From an uncultured Algoriphagus sp. (lineage in GTDB: Bacteria; Bacteroidota; Bacteroidia; Cytophagales; Cyclobacteriaceae): 41,846 nt of DNA. Both the position numbers and the translations under genes were made by a program. The notes beneath the pieces were generated by a model, which made no database searches, was not told where the DNA came from, and was given only the letters and a program-made list of their open reading frames with translations. The stretch covers positions 1 through 41,846 of the forward strand of contig CAJBER010000198.1 of assembly GCA_903952135.1 (NCBI GenBank), read 5' to 3'. Shown in pieces: positions 578-9,245 of the stretch (position 1 is its first letter; each line of letters starts with the position of its first letter).

Positions 578-2038
578 TTAATTCGCTAATAAATCCGTTA
601 TAAGTTGGGTGGCTACTTTTGGGTCCGCCTTTCCCTTTGATTTTTTCATCAATTCACCCATAAAAAAGCCCAAGAGACCTTTTTTCCCAGACCTGTATTC
701 GGATACCTTGCCTGGGTTTTCAAGCAATACTTCTTTTGCCAACGGCAGTAAAAAGCTTGCATCACTCTCCTGAATCAGGTTAAGCCTTTGCGCAATGGAC
801 AGAGGTGTAACATTCGGATGCAGCAAAAGTTCAGGAAAAATCTTCTGTGACGCAACAGAAAAGGAAACCTGCCCTTCTTCAACTAGTGCAATCAACTGAG
901 CAATTGCCTCCACCCCAATTGGGAATTTTACATAGGTCATTCCCGTCTCATTCAAATAGGACTTGATGGGACCCATCATCCAATTGGAAGCGGCTTTGTA
1001 ATGCACAGTTTGTGCACAAAGGGCCTCAAACCAGCCTGCTACCTCTTTGGTTTCTGTCAATAATGCGGCATCATACCTGGGTAATCCATATACTTCTATA
1101 AACTTATGGTATAAGACTCTAGGCAAGGCCGGCAGTCCAGCCTATACTTCTTCAATCCATTCTTCTGTAAGGATAACCGGTGGTAAGTCGGGCTCAGGAA
1201 AATACCTGTAATCATTCAATTCCTCCTTAGTGCGCATGCTCGCCGTAACCCCTTTATCCGCATCAAAAGTTCGCGTTTCCGATACAATATCCTGCCCTAC
1301 TTCAAGCAAGCCTACTTGGCGCTCGTATTCAAAATCAATGGCACGACCCAGGTTGCGGAAGGAATTCATGTTTTTTATTTCCACTTTCTTCCCTAAGGTT
1401 TCCGAACCATGAAATCTAACCGACACGTTGGCATCACAGCGAAGAGATCCTTCTTCCATGTTGCCATCGCAAATCCCTAGGTACATGACCATCTTTCGAA
1501 TCTCTGCTAAAAATACTACCGCCTCTTCGGAAGATCGAAGACAAGGTTCGGTCACCAATTCAATCAATGCAGTACCCGCTCGATTGTAATCGACCCAACT
1601 CTCCTCTCGCTCCGGAGAATGAATCAATTTACCAGCATCTTCTTCCAAATGAATTCGATTCAGTTGAATTTCTCGCTCAGTGCCATCCTCCAAAGTTAGG
1701 GTAACATTACCCCCTACACAGATTGGCTCCTTGTCCTGCGTGATTTGGTATCCCTTGGGTAGATCTGGATAAAAGTAATTCTTCCGATCAAAACTGCTTT
1801 TTCTGCTTATTTGAGATTCACATGCCAAACCCATACGCACAGCAAACTCTAGCGCACGTAAGTTTAGTTTGGGCAAGGTGCCAGGATGCCCTAGCGTAAT
1901 GACTGAAACCTGGGTATTGGCTTGAGCACCAAAATTATTGGCATCTCCAGCAAACAGTTTACTCGAGGTAGCCAATTGCGCATGAACTTCCAGTCCTACC
2001 ACCAATTGGTACTTGTCCATTAGTTCCTGTGTCAACAT
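578..2038 (-). pseudogene. gatB: Aspartyl/glutamyl-tRNA(Asn/Gln) amidotransferase subunit B, interrupted by an in-frame TAG
   Basis: GatB is the kinase/tRNA-binding subunit of GatCAB, which converts Asp-tRNA(Asn) or Glu-tRNA(Gln) to the amide form. The frame from 2038 to the TAA at 578 spans 486 codons before the stop, the normal GatB length, but codon 299 is TAG. The first part (298 aa) has the cradle motifs GLEVH, FDRKNYFYPDLPKGYQ, EEDAGK, CDANVSVR and DYRYFPEPDLPP. The second part carries the helical/YqeY tail (SNWMMG near its residue 46, GFFMGELMKKSKGKA near the end). Both parts are in the same frame, so this is a nonsense change, not a frameshift. Translation could restart at TTG 1126, but a separate tail would be unusual. 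Two normally conserved positions also differ (GTAL for GTPL, TEPC for TEPD). It may be a pseudogene, a read-through gene or a sequencing error. The start could be Met7 (2020). It lies 17 bp after alaS. Confidence 0.85.
1142..1144 (-). other. In-frame amber codon inside gatB
   Basis: Reading the minus strand, the codons are TGG ATT GAA GAA GTA TAG GCT GGA CTG CCG (W I E E V stop A G L P). The downstream residues continue the GatB alignment without insertion or deletion. Homologues recalled from memory have Lys or Arg at about this place (for example ERVRQTIPELP), so AAG to TAG is the simplest single-base route. A short inverted repeat, TAGGC (1144-1140) and GCCTA (1124-1120), includes the stop codon itself. 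Its significance is unknown and its stem is weak. Confidence 0.9.
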
Positions 2039-2055: not shown

Positions 2056-4680
2056 TTACAACAAGAGGGACTTGGCTTTCGCTACCACTTTAGGCAAGCC
2101 TGCTAGGTCTTTACCACCAGCAGTTGCGAAGAAAGGTTGGCCACCTCCACCGCCTTGGATTTCTTTGGCCAATTCACGAACCAGGTTGCCTGCATGTAGC
2201 CCTGTGGACTCCAATAACGATTCGTCGATAAATACAGCCACTTGAGGGGTATTGCTGATGGAAGCAGCCAAAACAATGCATGCTTTGGAAACCTCATTCT
2301 TTAACTCATACACCAATTTTTTCAAGGAATCAGCATTCGGCAATTCGACTGAAGCAATGAGTATTTGCTTGCCTTCTTTTTCGACAAACTGTCCTTTCAA
2401 CTGCTCCTTCACTCCTGCGGACTTTTCCAAGTGCAAGTGTTCAATTTCTTTTCGCAACTCATTGCGCTCCTGAACTAAGGCTTCTACCGCCTTCACTAGG
2501 TCTCGCGGATTTTTCAATAGCTCCTGCAATTCCTTCACCAGCCCTTCCTGCTCACGCAAGTACTGCTCTGCAGCAGTAGATGTGATCGCTTCGATGCGGC
2601 GTACTCCAGAAGATATAGAACCCTCACTGCTGATTTTAAATAATCCGATTTGGCTAGTCTGTGGGACGTGGGTACCTCCACAGAGTTCCACCGAAAAATC
2701 CCTTCCAAACGTGATTACACGAACAAAATCTCCATATTTCTCCCCAAACAAGGCGGTTGCGCCCTGCTTTTTGGCATCTTCAATAGGCACATTTCGCTGC
2801 TCCACCAGAGCAATATTCTCGCGTACTTTGGTATTGACAATAGCCTCTACCTTCGCCAGTTCTTCCTCCGTCATTTTTCCAAAGTGGGAAAAATCAAATC
2901 GAAGCAACTGCTCGTTCACCAAGGAACCCCGCTGCTGGATGTGATCTCCCAAAACGGACTTCAAGGCAGATTGAAGTAAGTGCGTCGCCGTATGGTTATT
3001 CATGGTAAGCTGGCGCTTTTCGGTATCCACTGCCGCAAAAAACTGGGCTTCAGGATGCTGAGGGAGCTTTTCTACAAAATGAACAATCAGGTCATTCTCT
3101 TTTTTGGTATCCAACACACGAATCTGCTCGGCTTCAGTCTTCAACCAACCCGTATCCCCTATCTGACCTCCACTCTCTGCATAAAAAGGAGTTTTATCCA
3201 AGACAAGCTGGAAGCGATCTCCTTTCTTATCCGAGATGGTTCTGTACTTCACGATTTGTGCATAGGCCTCTAGCGTATCGTAACCGACAAACTCCACTCC
3301 AGCATCTTCATGGACCAACACCCAATCCCCTGTATCTTGCTCAGATGCGGCTCTAGATCGGGTCTTTTGTTTTTCCATTTCTTCCGCAAAGCCTTTTTCA
3401 TCAACTGAAAACCCATTTTCCCGGGCAATCAAAGAAGTAAGGTCTAGTGGGAATCCGAAGGTATCGTACAATTCAAAAGCTGTTTTTCCTGAAATAATCG
3501 CTTCTTTCTTGGCGACCAACTCTGCTTTGATACCATCTAACATGCGAAGTCCATTGTCAAGCGTACGCAAGAAGGAGGCTTCCTCCTCTTGAATCACCTT
3601 TGCAATAAACTCCTGCTGCGCACGGACTTCTGGAAAAATATCTCCAAAATTTGAAGCGATCAAAGGGGTCAACTCGTGCAAGAATGGCTTTTGAAATCCT
3701 AGGAAGGTATAGCCGTAGCGAACCGCTCTACGCAGGATTCTTCGAATCACATATCCTGCCTTGTTATTGGAAGGAATCTGTCCATCGGCAATGGTGAAGG
3801 ATATCGCACGGATATGATCTACAATTACGCGGAAGGCAATATCTGTAGGCTCGTCTTTGCCATAGGTTTTTCCAGACTTAAGTTCCAAGGCTTGGATAAA
3901 CGGCAAGAATAAATCGGTATCGTAATTGGAAGATTTGTGTTGGATCGCACGTACCAAACGCTCAAAACCCATCCCTGTGTCCACGTGAGTGGCTGGGAGA
4001 GGCTTCAAACTTCCTTCCGATAACCTGTTGAACTGCATGAATACCAGGTTCCAGATCTCGATTACTTGTGGATGGTCATTGTTAACCAATTCACGACCTG
4101 GCACAGCAGCACGCTCGGCAGCAGTACGCAAGTCTACGTGGATCTCCGAACAAGGACCGCATGGTCCAGTATCTCCCATTTCCCAGAAGTTGTCCTTCTT
4201 GGAACCCATGATGATGCGGTCTTTTGCTATAATAGTACTCCATAGGTCATAGGCCTCCTGGTCCATAGCCAAGTTATCTCCTTTATCTCCTTGGAATACG
4301 GACACATACAATAAGTCTTTTGGGAGTTTGTATACTTCAGTCAATAGTTCCCAAGCCCACTCAATCGCTTCCTTCTTGAAGTAATCTCCAAAAGACCAGT
4401 TGCCCAGCATCTCAAACATGGTGTGGTGGTAGGTATCTACCCCAACTTCTTCCAAATCGTTGTGCTTACCACTTACACGAAGGCATTTTTGAGAATTGGC
4501 TACTCTTGAGAATTTGGCAACCTCATTTCCTAAAAAAGCATCTTTGAATTGATTCATCCCTGCGTTGGTAAACATCAGGGTGGGGTCATTTTTTACTACA
4601 ATGGGGGAAGATGGAACGTATTGGTGTTGCTTGGATTGAAAAAATTCAATGAACGTACTTCTGATTTTTTTGGCTTCCAT
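2056..4680 (-). CDS. alaS: Alanyl-tRNA synthetase
   Basis: This cytoplasmic class II synthetase charges tRNA(Ala) with alanine and edits mischarged Ser/Gly. At 874 residues it has the usual AlaRS length. The N-terminus (IRSTFIEFF, then FTNAGMNQFKD at about 36-46) is the catalytic core. The editing domain carries HTATH near residues 563-567 and CGGTH near 667-671, which together make the zinc site. A coiled-coil stretch follows, and the C-Ala domain ends with the glycine-rich GGGGGQP motif. The start ATG at 4680 gives the expected N-terminus. A TAAATTTG box lies about 70 bp upstream. It is the first gene of a tightly spaced minus-strand block with gatB and a lipoprotein gene. Nothing looks damaged here, in contrast to gatB. 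Confidence 0.97.
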   Translation of the reverse strand: MEAKKIRSTFIEFFQSKQHQYVPSSPIVVKNDPTLMFTNAGMNQFKDAFLGNEVAKFSRVANSQKCLRVSGKHNDLEEVGVDTYHHTMFEMLGNWSFGDYFKKEAIEWAWELLTEVYKLPKDLLYVSVFQGDKGDNLAMDQEAYDLWSTIIAKDRIIMGSKKDNFWEMGDTGPCGPCSEIHVDLRTAAERAAVPGRELVNNDHPQVIEIWNLVFMQFNRLSEGSLKPLPATHVDTGMGFERLVRAIQHKSSNYDTDLFLPFIQALELKSGKTYGKDEPTDIAFRVIVDHIRAISFTIADGQIPSNNKAGYVIRRILRRAVRYGYTFLGFQKPFLHELTPLIASNFGDIFPEVRAQQEFIAKVIQEEEASFLRTLDNGLRMLDGIKAELVAKKEAIISGKTAFELYDTFGFPLDLTSLIARENGFSVDEKGFAEEMEKQKTRSRAASEQDTGDWVLVHEDAGVEFVGYDTLEAYAQIVKYRTISDKKGDRFQLVLDKTPFYAESGGQIGDTGWLKTEAEQIRVLDTKKENDLIVHFVEKLPQHPEAQFFAAVDTEKRQLTMNNHTATHLLQSALKSVLGDHIQQRGSLVNEQLLRFDFSHFGKMTEEELAKVEAIVNTKVRENIALVEQRNVPIEDAKKQGATALFGEKYGDFVRVITFGRDFSVELCGGTHVPQTSQIGLFKISSEGSISSGVRRIEAITSTAAEQYLREQEGLVKELQELLKNPRDLVKAVEALVQERNELRKEIEHLHLEKSAGVKEQLKGQFVEKEGKQILIASVELPNADSLKKLVYELKNEVSKACIVLAASISNTPQVAVFIDESLLESTGLHAGNLVRELAKEIQGGGGGQPFFATAGGKDLAGLPKVVAKAKSLLL

Positions 4681-7559: not shown

Positions 7560-9245
7560 TTAGGCTAAGCCCAACTTTTCGAGGTGAGCCTCCTTGATTT
7601 TTCGACGAAGGATTTTACCCACATTGGTTTTTGGAAGTTCGTCCGTGAAAAACACTTCCTTAGGAACCTTGTAATTGGTCAAAAACTCCTTGCAGTGCTC
7701 AAGTACCTTTTCTTCAGTAAGTGACTGGTCTTTCTTGACCACATAGGCAACTACCTTTTCAGTAGACTTTGGATCAGGCATGCCGATCACCCCTACTTCC
7801 AAGACTCCTGGACAGGAAGCCACTACATCTTCTACCTCATTAGGATACACATTGAATCCTGAAACTAGGATCATTTCCTTTTTACGGTCTACAATCTTGG
7901 TATATCCATCGACATCCATTACGCCGATATCCCCAGATTTAAACCAATCTCCATGCATCACAAGGGCGGTTTCCTCGGGTCTATTCCAATAGCCACGCAT
8001 GACCTGCGGACCTTTGATCAAAATCTCTCCTCGCTCACCAAGAGCTACCGGATTGCCCGCATCATCTGCAATCATCACCTCGGTATTGGGCAAAGGCATG
8101 CCAATGGTACCAATTCGCTCGGTTCCATCGATGGGATTGCAAGTGGCCACAGGGGCTGTTTCGGTTAAGCCATAGCCTTCTGCCAAAGGAACACCGGTTA
8201 CTGATTTCCATTTTTCAGCTGTTGCTTTCTGTACCGCCATTCCACCTCCCACGGCAATCTTCAGACCGGAGAAATCCAATTTTCCAAAGGCTTCTTGGTT
8301 CAACAATCCATTGAATAGCGTGTTGACCCCGGTGATGACTGTGAATCGTTTTTTGGCTAAATCACCAATAAAAGCCTTCATATCTCTTGGGTTGGTAATC
8401 AGTACGTTATGTGCACCAATTTTTAACATAGCCAAGCAGTTGACCGTCAAGGCAAAAATGTGGTAGAGCGGCAATGCAGTAATGACGATTTCTTCTTTTT
8501 CCCGCAACTTGGGTTTCATCCAAGCGGAGATTTGCTGCATGTTGGCTACAATATTTCCATGGCTGAGTTCGGCCCCTTTGGAGACTCCTGTGGTACCTCC
8601 AGTGTATTGCAAAAATGCAGGATCATCTAACGTGATGGCCACCTTTGAAAACGAATGTTTGGCTCCCAAAGCCAATGCTTTCTTCAACCCTACCGCCTCA
8701 GGAAGGTTAAATGCTGGCACCATCTTTTTGACGTGCTTGACCACAAGATTGACAATGGCCCCTTTCAGCCCTCCAAGCAAATCGCCCAACTCGGTGACGA
8801 TGATATGCTTGGCCTGAATTTCAGTTTTGATTTTCTCCAGATTGGATGCAAAATTGGCTACAATGACCACCACATCGGCTCCAGAATCATTGAACTGATG
8901 CCTCATTTCGGCAGGGGTATACAGTGGGTTAGTATTCACGACTACCATCCCTGCACATAGCGCACCAAACATCACCACAGGATACTGCAAGACGTTGGGC
9001 ATCTGAATGGCTACTCTAGAGCCCTTTGCCAGTTTAAGTTCTTTAATCAGGTACGAAGCAAACTGTGCACTCAAGCGATCCAATTCTTGGAAAGAAAGGG
9101 TTTTGCCCATGCATTCGTAGGCCACCGAAGAACCATATTTGGCAACACTTTCCTCGAAAAGGGCTGCAACACTGGTATAAGCGGTACAATCCACCTCTTT
9201 AGGGACTGAGGAAGGATAGAATTTAAACCAAGAGAAATCGTTCAT
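7560..9245 (-). CDS. fadD: Long-chain fatty acid-CoA ligase (AMP-binding)
   Basis: This enzyme activates fatty acids to acyl-CoA through an acyl-adenylate, feeding beta-oxidation and lipid synthesis. At 561 residues it matches FadD. The P-loop-like motif YTGGTTGVSKGA lies at about 213-224, the A5 motif is GYGLTETAP, and the A7/A8 region is GDIGVMDVDGYTKIVDRKKEMI. The C-terminal PKTNVGKILRRKIKE contains the adenylation-domain lysine. The N-terminus shows the PxxVPKEVD pattern often seen in FadD. No signal peptide is present; it is cytosolic or membrane-associated. It is transcribed alone, ending in the terminator at 7514-7537. Chain-length preference cannot be read from sequence by eye. Confidence 0.93.
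   Translation of the reverse strand: MNDFSWFKFYPSSVPKEVDCTAYTSVAALFEESVAKYGSSVAYECMGKTLSFQELDRLSAQFASYLIKELKLAKGSRVAIQMPNVLQYPVVMFGALCAGMVVVNTNPLYTPAEMRHQFNDSGADVVVIVANFASNLEKIKTEIQAKHIIVTELGDLLGGLKGAIVNLVVKHVKKMVPAFNLPEAVGLKKALALGAKHSFSKVAITLDDPAFLQYTGGTTGVSKGAELSHGNIVANMQQISAWMKPKLREKEEIVITALPLYHIFALTVNCLAMLKIGAHNVLITNPRDMKAFIGDLAKKRFTVITGVNTLFNGLLNQEAFGKLDFSGLKIAVGGGMAVQKATAEKWKSVTGVPLAEGYGLTETAPVATCNPIDGTERIGTIGMPLPNTEVMIADDAGNPVALGERGEILIKGPQVMRGYWNRPEETALVMHGDWFKSGDIGVMDVDGYTKIVDRKKEMILVSGFNVYPNEVEDVVASCPGVLEVGVIGMPDPKSTEKVVAYVVKKDQSLTEEKVLEHCKEFLTNYKVPKEVFFTDELPKTNVGKILRRKIKEAHLEKLGLA

Follow-up and report, generated by a model that had tools for sequence, protein, structure and literature searches.

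Bacterial GatB is represented by the TIGR00133 family and by the solved chains 3h0l_B, 3al0_B and 2df4_B, and the full-length protein associates with GatA and GatC in the tRNA-dependent amidotransferase GatCAB. In one survey, 68 of 547 genera combine GatCAB with AsnRS and GlnRS, and GatCAB is described as perhaps vestigial where asparagine synthetase accompanies both of these enzymes (PMC4206432); in another, 12 of 14 Bacteroidetes lack gatCAB, as we read the table (PMC3927822). Two further studies concern shortened or interrupted proteins of this kind. In yeast GatFAB, a mitochondrial enzyme, laboratory deletion of YqeY, or of both C-terminal domains (delta-HY), left no measurable transamidation (PMC4027206). 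Among public genomes, many single-mutation pseudogenes are assembly errors (Cooley and Wright 2024, PMC11017572), although that study used isolate genomes and by its own account left metagenome assemblies out.

We analysed a window of 41,846 nucleotides, which corresponds to bases 1-41846 of contig C198 in a draft assembly placed near Algoriphagus (G000; 2,843,187 bases in 249 contigs, 89.9% complete). Its minus strand carries a gatB frame of 487 codons, running from 2038 to 578, in which codon 299 is TAG (1142..1144; CTA on the plus strand), and translation of this strand revealed no indel and a normal terminal stop at 578..580. The gatB head (1145..2038, minus strand; codons 1-298) is a 298-aa open frame starting at ATG and contains a complete GatB_N catalytic, or cradle, domain (PF02934, residues 12-296, 390 bits), and the tail (581..1141, minus strand; codons 300-486) forms the helical/YqeY region, with a complete PF02637 match at codons 336-484. 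The open reading frame listing also gives a 182-aa tail fragment (578..1126, minus strand), for which a gene caller would choose a TTG start codon after the stop. When X was substituted for the stop, both Pfam domains fell in a single frame, TIGR00133, NF004014 and NF004012 all scored above the NCBIfam cut-off, and the frame aligned over nearly its full length with GatB of A. aeolicus (query 8-484) and T. maritima (9-484). The in-frame TAG, which interrupts the frame in the assembled letters, is the sole difference from bacterial GatB. The initial annotation had described a single amber codon splitting an otherwise intact gatB between cradle and tail, and this is borne out, with TAG just 3' of the catalytic domain and ~37 codons ahead of the start of the PF02637 match. 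Among 28 window counterparts of open reading frames of at least 100 aa in a second assembly (G013), gatB alone was broken, as two further stops in this comparison were judged by eye to lie upstream of likely start codons.

Across 98 genomes, 92 (including G000) matched the X-read gatB frame, and TAG was found inside it only in G000. The codon-299 column held a sense codon in all 29 relatives for which loci were available, with S, R, N, A, K, Q or E as the encoded residue. Single stops are listed inside gatB in three order-level genomes (TGA in G082, TGA in G097 and TAA in G086), and their open frames of 480-482 aa suggest that these are ordinary gene ends. Within the genus, the gatB head query matched 70 of 72 genomes (including G000); excluding G000 itself, there were matches in 69 of 71, all of them in open frames no shorter than 456 aa, compared with 315 in G000. 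This query stops short of codon 299, and 57 of the 69 were aligned over the site as well and showed no internal stop. The unmatched genus genomes, G006 and G029, have completeness values of 83% and 85%, respectively, and the match was kept in all 50 with completeness of at least 90% and contamination of at most 5%. In the nearest genome (G108), which shares 90% identity over 1458 nt, gatB is open and has a sense codon at the site, and the GatB of G013 is identical over the compared residues to P0006, whose source is a MAG of an Algoriphagus sp. No near same-species match was found in the named genomes, where the best of at least 80 loci reached 69% identity, and records close to the window's genome may be absent from them. 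The initial annotation had named sense codons in relatives from independent assemblies, coupled with low support for this base, as evidence against a genuine stop, and it is the first of these that we observe.

The best protein match to the tail was P0150, a 263-aa fragment (longest contig 1149 nt, five cluster members) that is 97% identical to the window's gatB across the tail (98% for the alignment as a whole) and that spans the stop site and carries a sense codon there. It was obtained with the 182-aa tail as the query and candidates limited to proteins of ~100-318 aa, so that fragments surface. The source column of P0150 contains "-", the sign given to proteins encoded by the window, yet the window cannot encode a 263-aa P0150, and we therefore infer that the window's own tail fragment was clustered with it. 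When the 298-aa head was used as the query, no protein shorter than 428 aa was present among the best 120 of 7998 hits.

Purifying selection acts on both sides of the stop, and the tail behaves like that of intact copies. In comparisons of G000 with five relatives, dN/dS was 0.08-0.15 for the tail and 0.05-0.08 for the head, and in ten intact pairs it was 0.07-0.21 (nine computable) and 0.05-0.08, respectively, while the tail-to-head ratio of amino-acid differences fell in the same range whether or not G000 was included. Codon changes private to the G000 tail comprised three synonymous and three non-synonymous, compared with 12 and 5 in G108, 9 and 2 in G008, and 7 and 12 in G013. Relaxed selection, further lesions or a lesion common to the lineage would mark an established pseudogene; here the tail has the dN/dS of intact pairs, the frame contains no indel, and all 69 matching genus relatives as well as P0150 are open. 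The tail is not decaying, and a real stop would therefore be very young.

Other genes in G000 that are expected to be intact are also broken. A PF00152 search returned AspRS, AsnRS and one LysRS split over two frames, due to 1 nt missing from a T run when compared with G008 and G013 (L100 on contig C77, ~2320-2515, minus strand). LysRS is essential, and this was the only one found in G000 by that search. The gatA gene on C103 (L210) contains an in-frame TAA ~80 nt from the contig end, and its start lies on C70 (L317), with the high ends of the two contigs overlapping by 102 nt (96 identical, 6 mismatches). C70 is open where C103 has TAA, and three clustered transversions are confined to C103, one of which creates the stop; the last bases of C70 in turn include two differences of their own where C103 agrees with G008. 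Both contig ends are questionable, and mixed strains would likewise account for these differences. The TAA had raised the prospect of lineage-wide decay of GatCAB, which was set aside because the overlapping C70 is open and gatC is intact. Likewise, an amidohydrolase gene on C217 (L214, ~7965-8010) has a 1-nt insertion relative to G013.

We surveyed such breaks in 555,073 bases of G000 (38 contigs, including the window, several of them picked for particular genes that they held), 1,107,437 bases of G013 and 379,110 bases of G008. Searching G000 with G013 queries gave 222 genes matched at at least 75% over 86,542 codons and eight candidate breaks, of which gatB, gatA, lysS and the C217 gene stood after inspection, the first three having been known ahead of the survey. 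The candidates on C40, C2, C3 and C193 were dropped by eye, since the stop or frame change lay upstream of the start codon, and one on C133, which came up only in a first, looser run, looked like a spurious open reading frame. With G000 queries on G013, 220 genes gave ten candidates; nine were dropped by eye as upstream, spurious or a mirror of the lysS break, and one was judged real, an in-frame TAG at ~codon 22 after the ATG of a conserved gene (C58:56934-57584, minus strand). Queries from G008 on G013 returned no candidates. In G008, 93 genes gave three candidates with G000 queries, all dropped by eye, and 96 genes gave four with G013 queries, of which three were dropped and one was judged real, a TAA at ~codon 260 in a frame of 349 aa whose G013 counterpart is open (C5:7203-8249). 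Single breaks are present in all three assemblies, with G000 highest, on small numbers and with vetting by eye.

Given that gatB runs uninterrupted in relatives and in a near-identical copy, and that similar faults affect other genes of the draft, the gatB stop most likely reflects a wrong base or a mutation confined to one strain, and not new biology; it is most likely absent from the organism, or at most present in one strain. An error of consensus or assembly in this fragmented, metagenome-type draft is the probable cause, and we infer that the base at 1142-1144 is itself wrong; the true gene would be an ordinary full-length gatB. A base error was one of four options raised in the initial annotation, beside pseudogene formation, read-through or suppression, and a tail-less GatB, and it is the best supported, by the open frames of P0150 and the relatives, by the purifying selection on the tail and by the other breaks in G000. 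The case resembles the spurious pseudogenes of isolate genomes in PMC11017572, in that a single mutation breaks the gene and the assembly contains more single breaks, including one in lysS, whose product should be essential, and differs in coming from a metagenome-type assembly. Against a base error, the site lies 1.1 kb from the contig start, unlike the gatA stop at the very end of its own contig, no second contig covers it, the source entry of P0150 is only "-", and apart from the stop no cluster of odd changes was noticed in the ~300 bases around it. In addition, gatB looks dispensable on paper, and a real null allele is not an absurd proposition. Inferring loss or recoding from a lone in-frame stop in a conserved gene of a draft calls for a prior look at whether essential genes are broken too and whether overlapping contigs of the same assembly agree.

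A nonsense mutation that is real, very recent and private to one strain, with gatB newly lost and GatCAB made dispensable by GlnRS, AsnRS and possibly asparagine synthetase, is a less likely explanation, to which we give a minor but appreciable weight. Direct synthetases for Gln and Asn, which the initial annotation presupposed, do exist in G000, where NCBIfam identifies GlnRS (a 688-aa frame), GltX, AsnRS and one AspRS, all in open frames. Also present are a short GluRS-like paralogue, an intact gatC and one gene with an Asn_synthase domain, a putative AsnB. The GlnRS (L102:1609-3672, on C16) extends ~90 residues beyond its NCBIfam match (13-597 of 688), a region with no Pfam domain at E 0.1. 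Of the genes that the initial annotation had proposed to look for, gatA, gatC, GlnRS and AsnRS were found, whereas a second gatB (a search of the assembly gave a single match only) and, among 31 tRNA matches, a suppressor tRNA with a CUA anticodon were not. The AspRS position that we compared, which we take to be His in non-discriminating enzymes, is Lys in G000 and Leu in E. coli and gives no decision on specificity, and both tRNA-Asn and tRNA-Gln start with U, which likewise does not discriminate. This set of GatA, GatB, GatC, AsnRS, GlnRS and a single AspRS resembles the Bdellovibrio-type GatCAB (PMC4206432), except that G000 additionally has the Asn_synthase-domain gene. Because GlnRS, AsnRS and that gene are present, and given the published distribution of GatCAB and its possibly vestigial role, a gatB null allele would be tolerable in principle. 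No gatB match was obtained in the order-level genomes G066, G072 and G084 (1.6 Mb, 89-93% complete), perhaps reflecting independent losses of GatCAB, which would fit with such tolerance. Weighing against the null allele are the tail, with dN/dS within the range of intact pairs, the intact gatC, the apparent gatA stop that is contradicted within the assembly, the open P0150, and the match retained in all 50 of the more complete genus genomes. Were the nonsense allele real, it would capture GatCAB just as its loss begins, in a lineage having both direct synthetases.

Read-through or suppression of a real amber codon, giving full-length GatB with an inserted residue, is highly improbable. The complete frame and the purifying selection on both sides of TAG would suit it, as would the early in-frame TAG in the conserved gene of G013. 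However, no CUA anticodon was present among 31 tRNA matches in G000, a search that is not exhaustive because the genome is only 89.9% complete; of the first 30 loci submitted to ARAGORN, 29 were assigned a tRNA, as was the 31st, and the anticodon loop of the one left over, L097, was read by eye as CCU. TAG is also in ordinary use, terminating 21 of 202 conserved open reading frames in G000, with 16 of the 21 also ending in TAG in G013, and the G000 sample contained no further in-frame TAG that passed vetting. TAG is therefore neither avoided as a terminator nor recurrent in frame, and amber suppression was set aside on the tRNA anticodons and stop-codon usage. Moreover, the codon-299 column is variable among relatives, and in none of those examined is it TAG. 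The suggestion in the initial annotation that loss or recoding here would be notable is not supported, given the sense codon in the near-identical P0150, the tRNA anticodons and the normal genes that end in TAG.

Equally improbable is a functional stop, which would yield either a tail-less GatB or a head accompanied by a tail restarted at TTG. It would accord with the complete PF02934 in the head and the complete PF02637 in the tail, but no relative has a stop at codon 299, and none of the best 120 head hits is shorter than 428 aa. The piece left by the stop would also be nearly the same as that in yeast delta-HY, a cradle without the helical and YqeY domains, and although that enzyme is mitochondrial and the deletion a laboratory construct, its lack of measurable transamidation (PMC4027206) leaves the proposal of a tail-less GatB in the initial annotation unsupported. 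There is likewise only a very slight chance that read-through at this one site, or a two-piece or tail-less GatB, tunes or repurposes GatCAB beside direct Gln and Asn charging. One tail-only GatB was recovered from another species (P0152; 182 aa, longest contig 2172 nt), and it starts at the same residue as the window's tail ORF, as a two-piece GatB might, although its gene is probably truncated by the end of its short contig.
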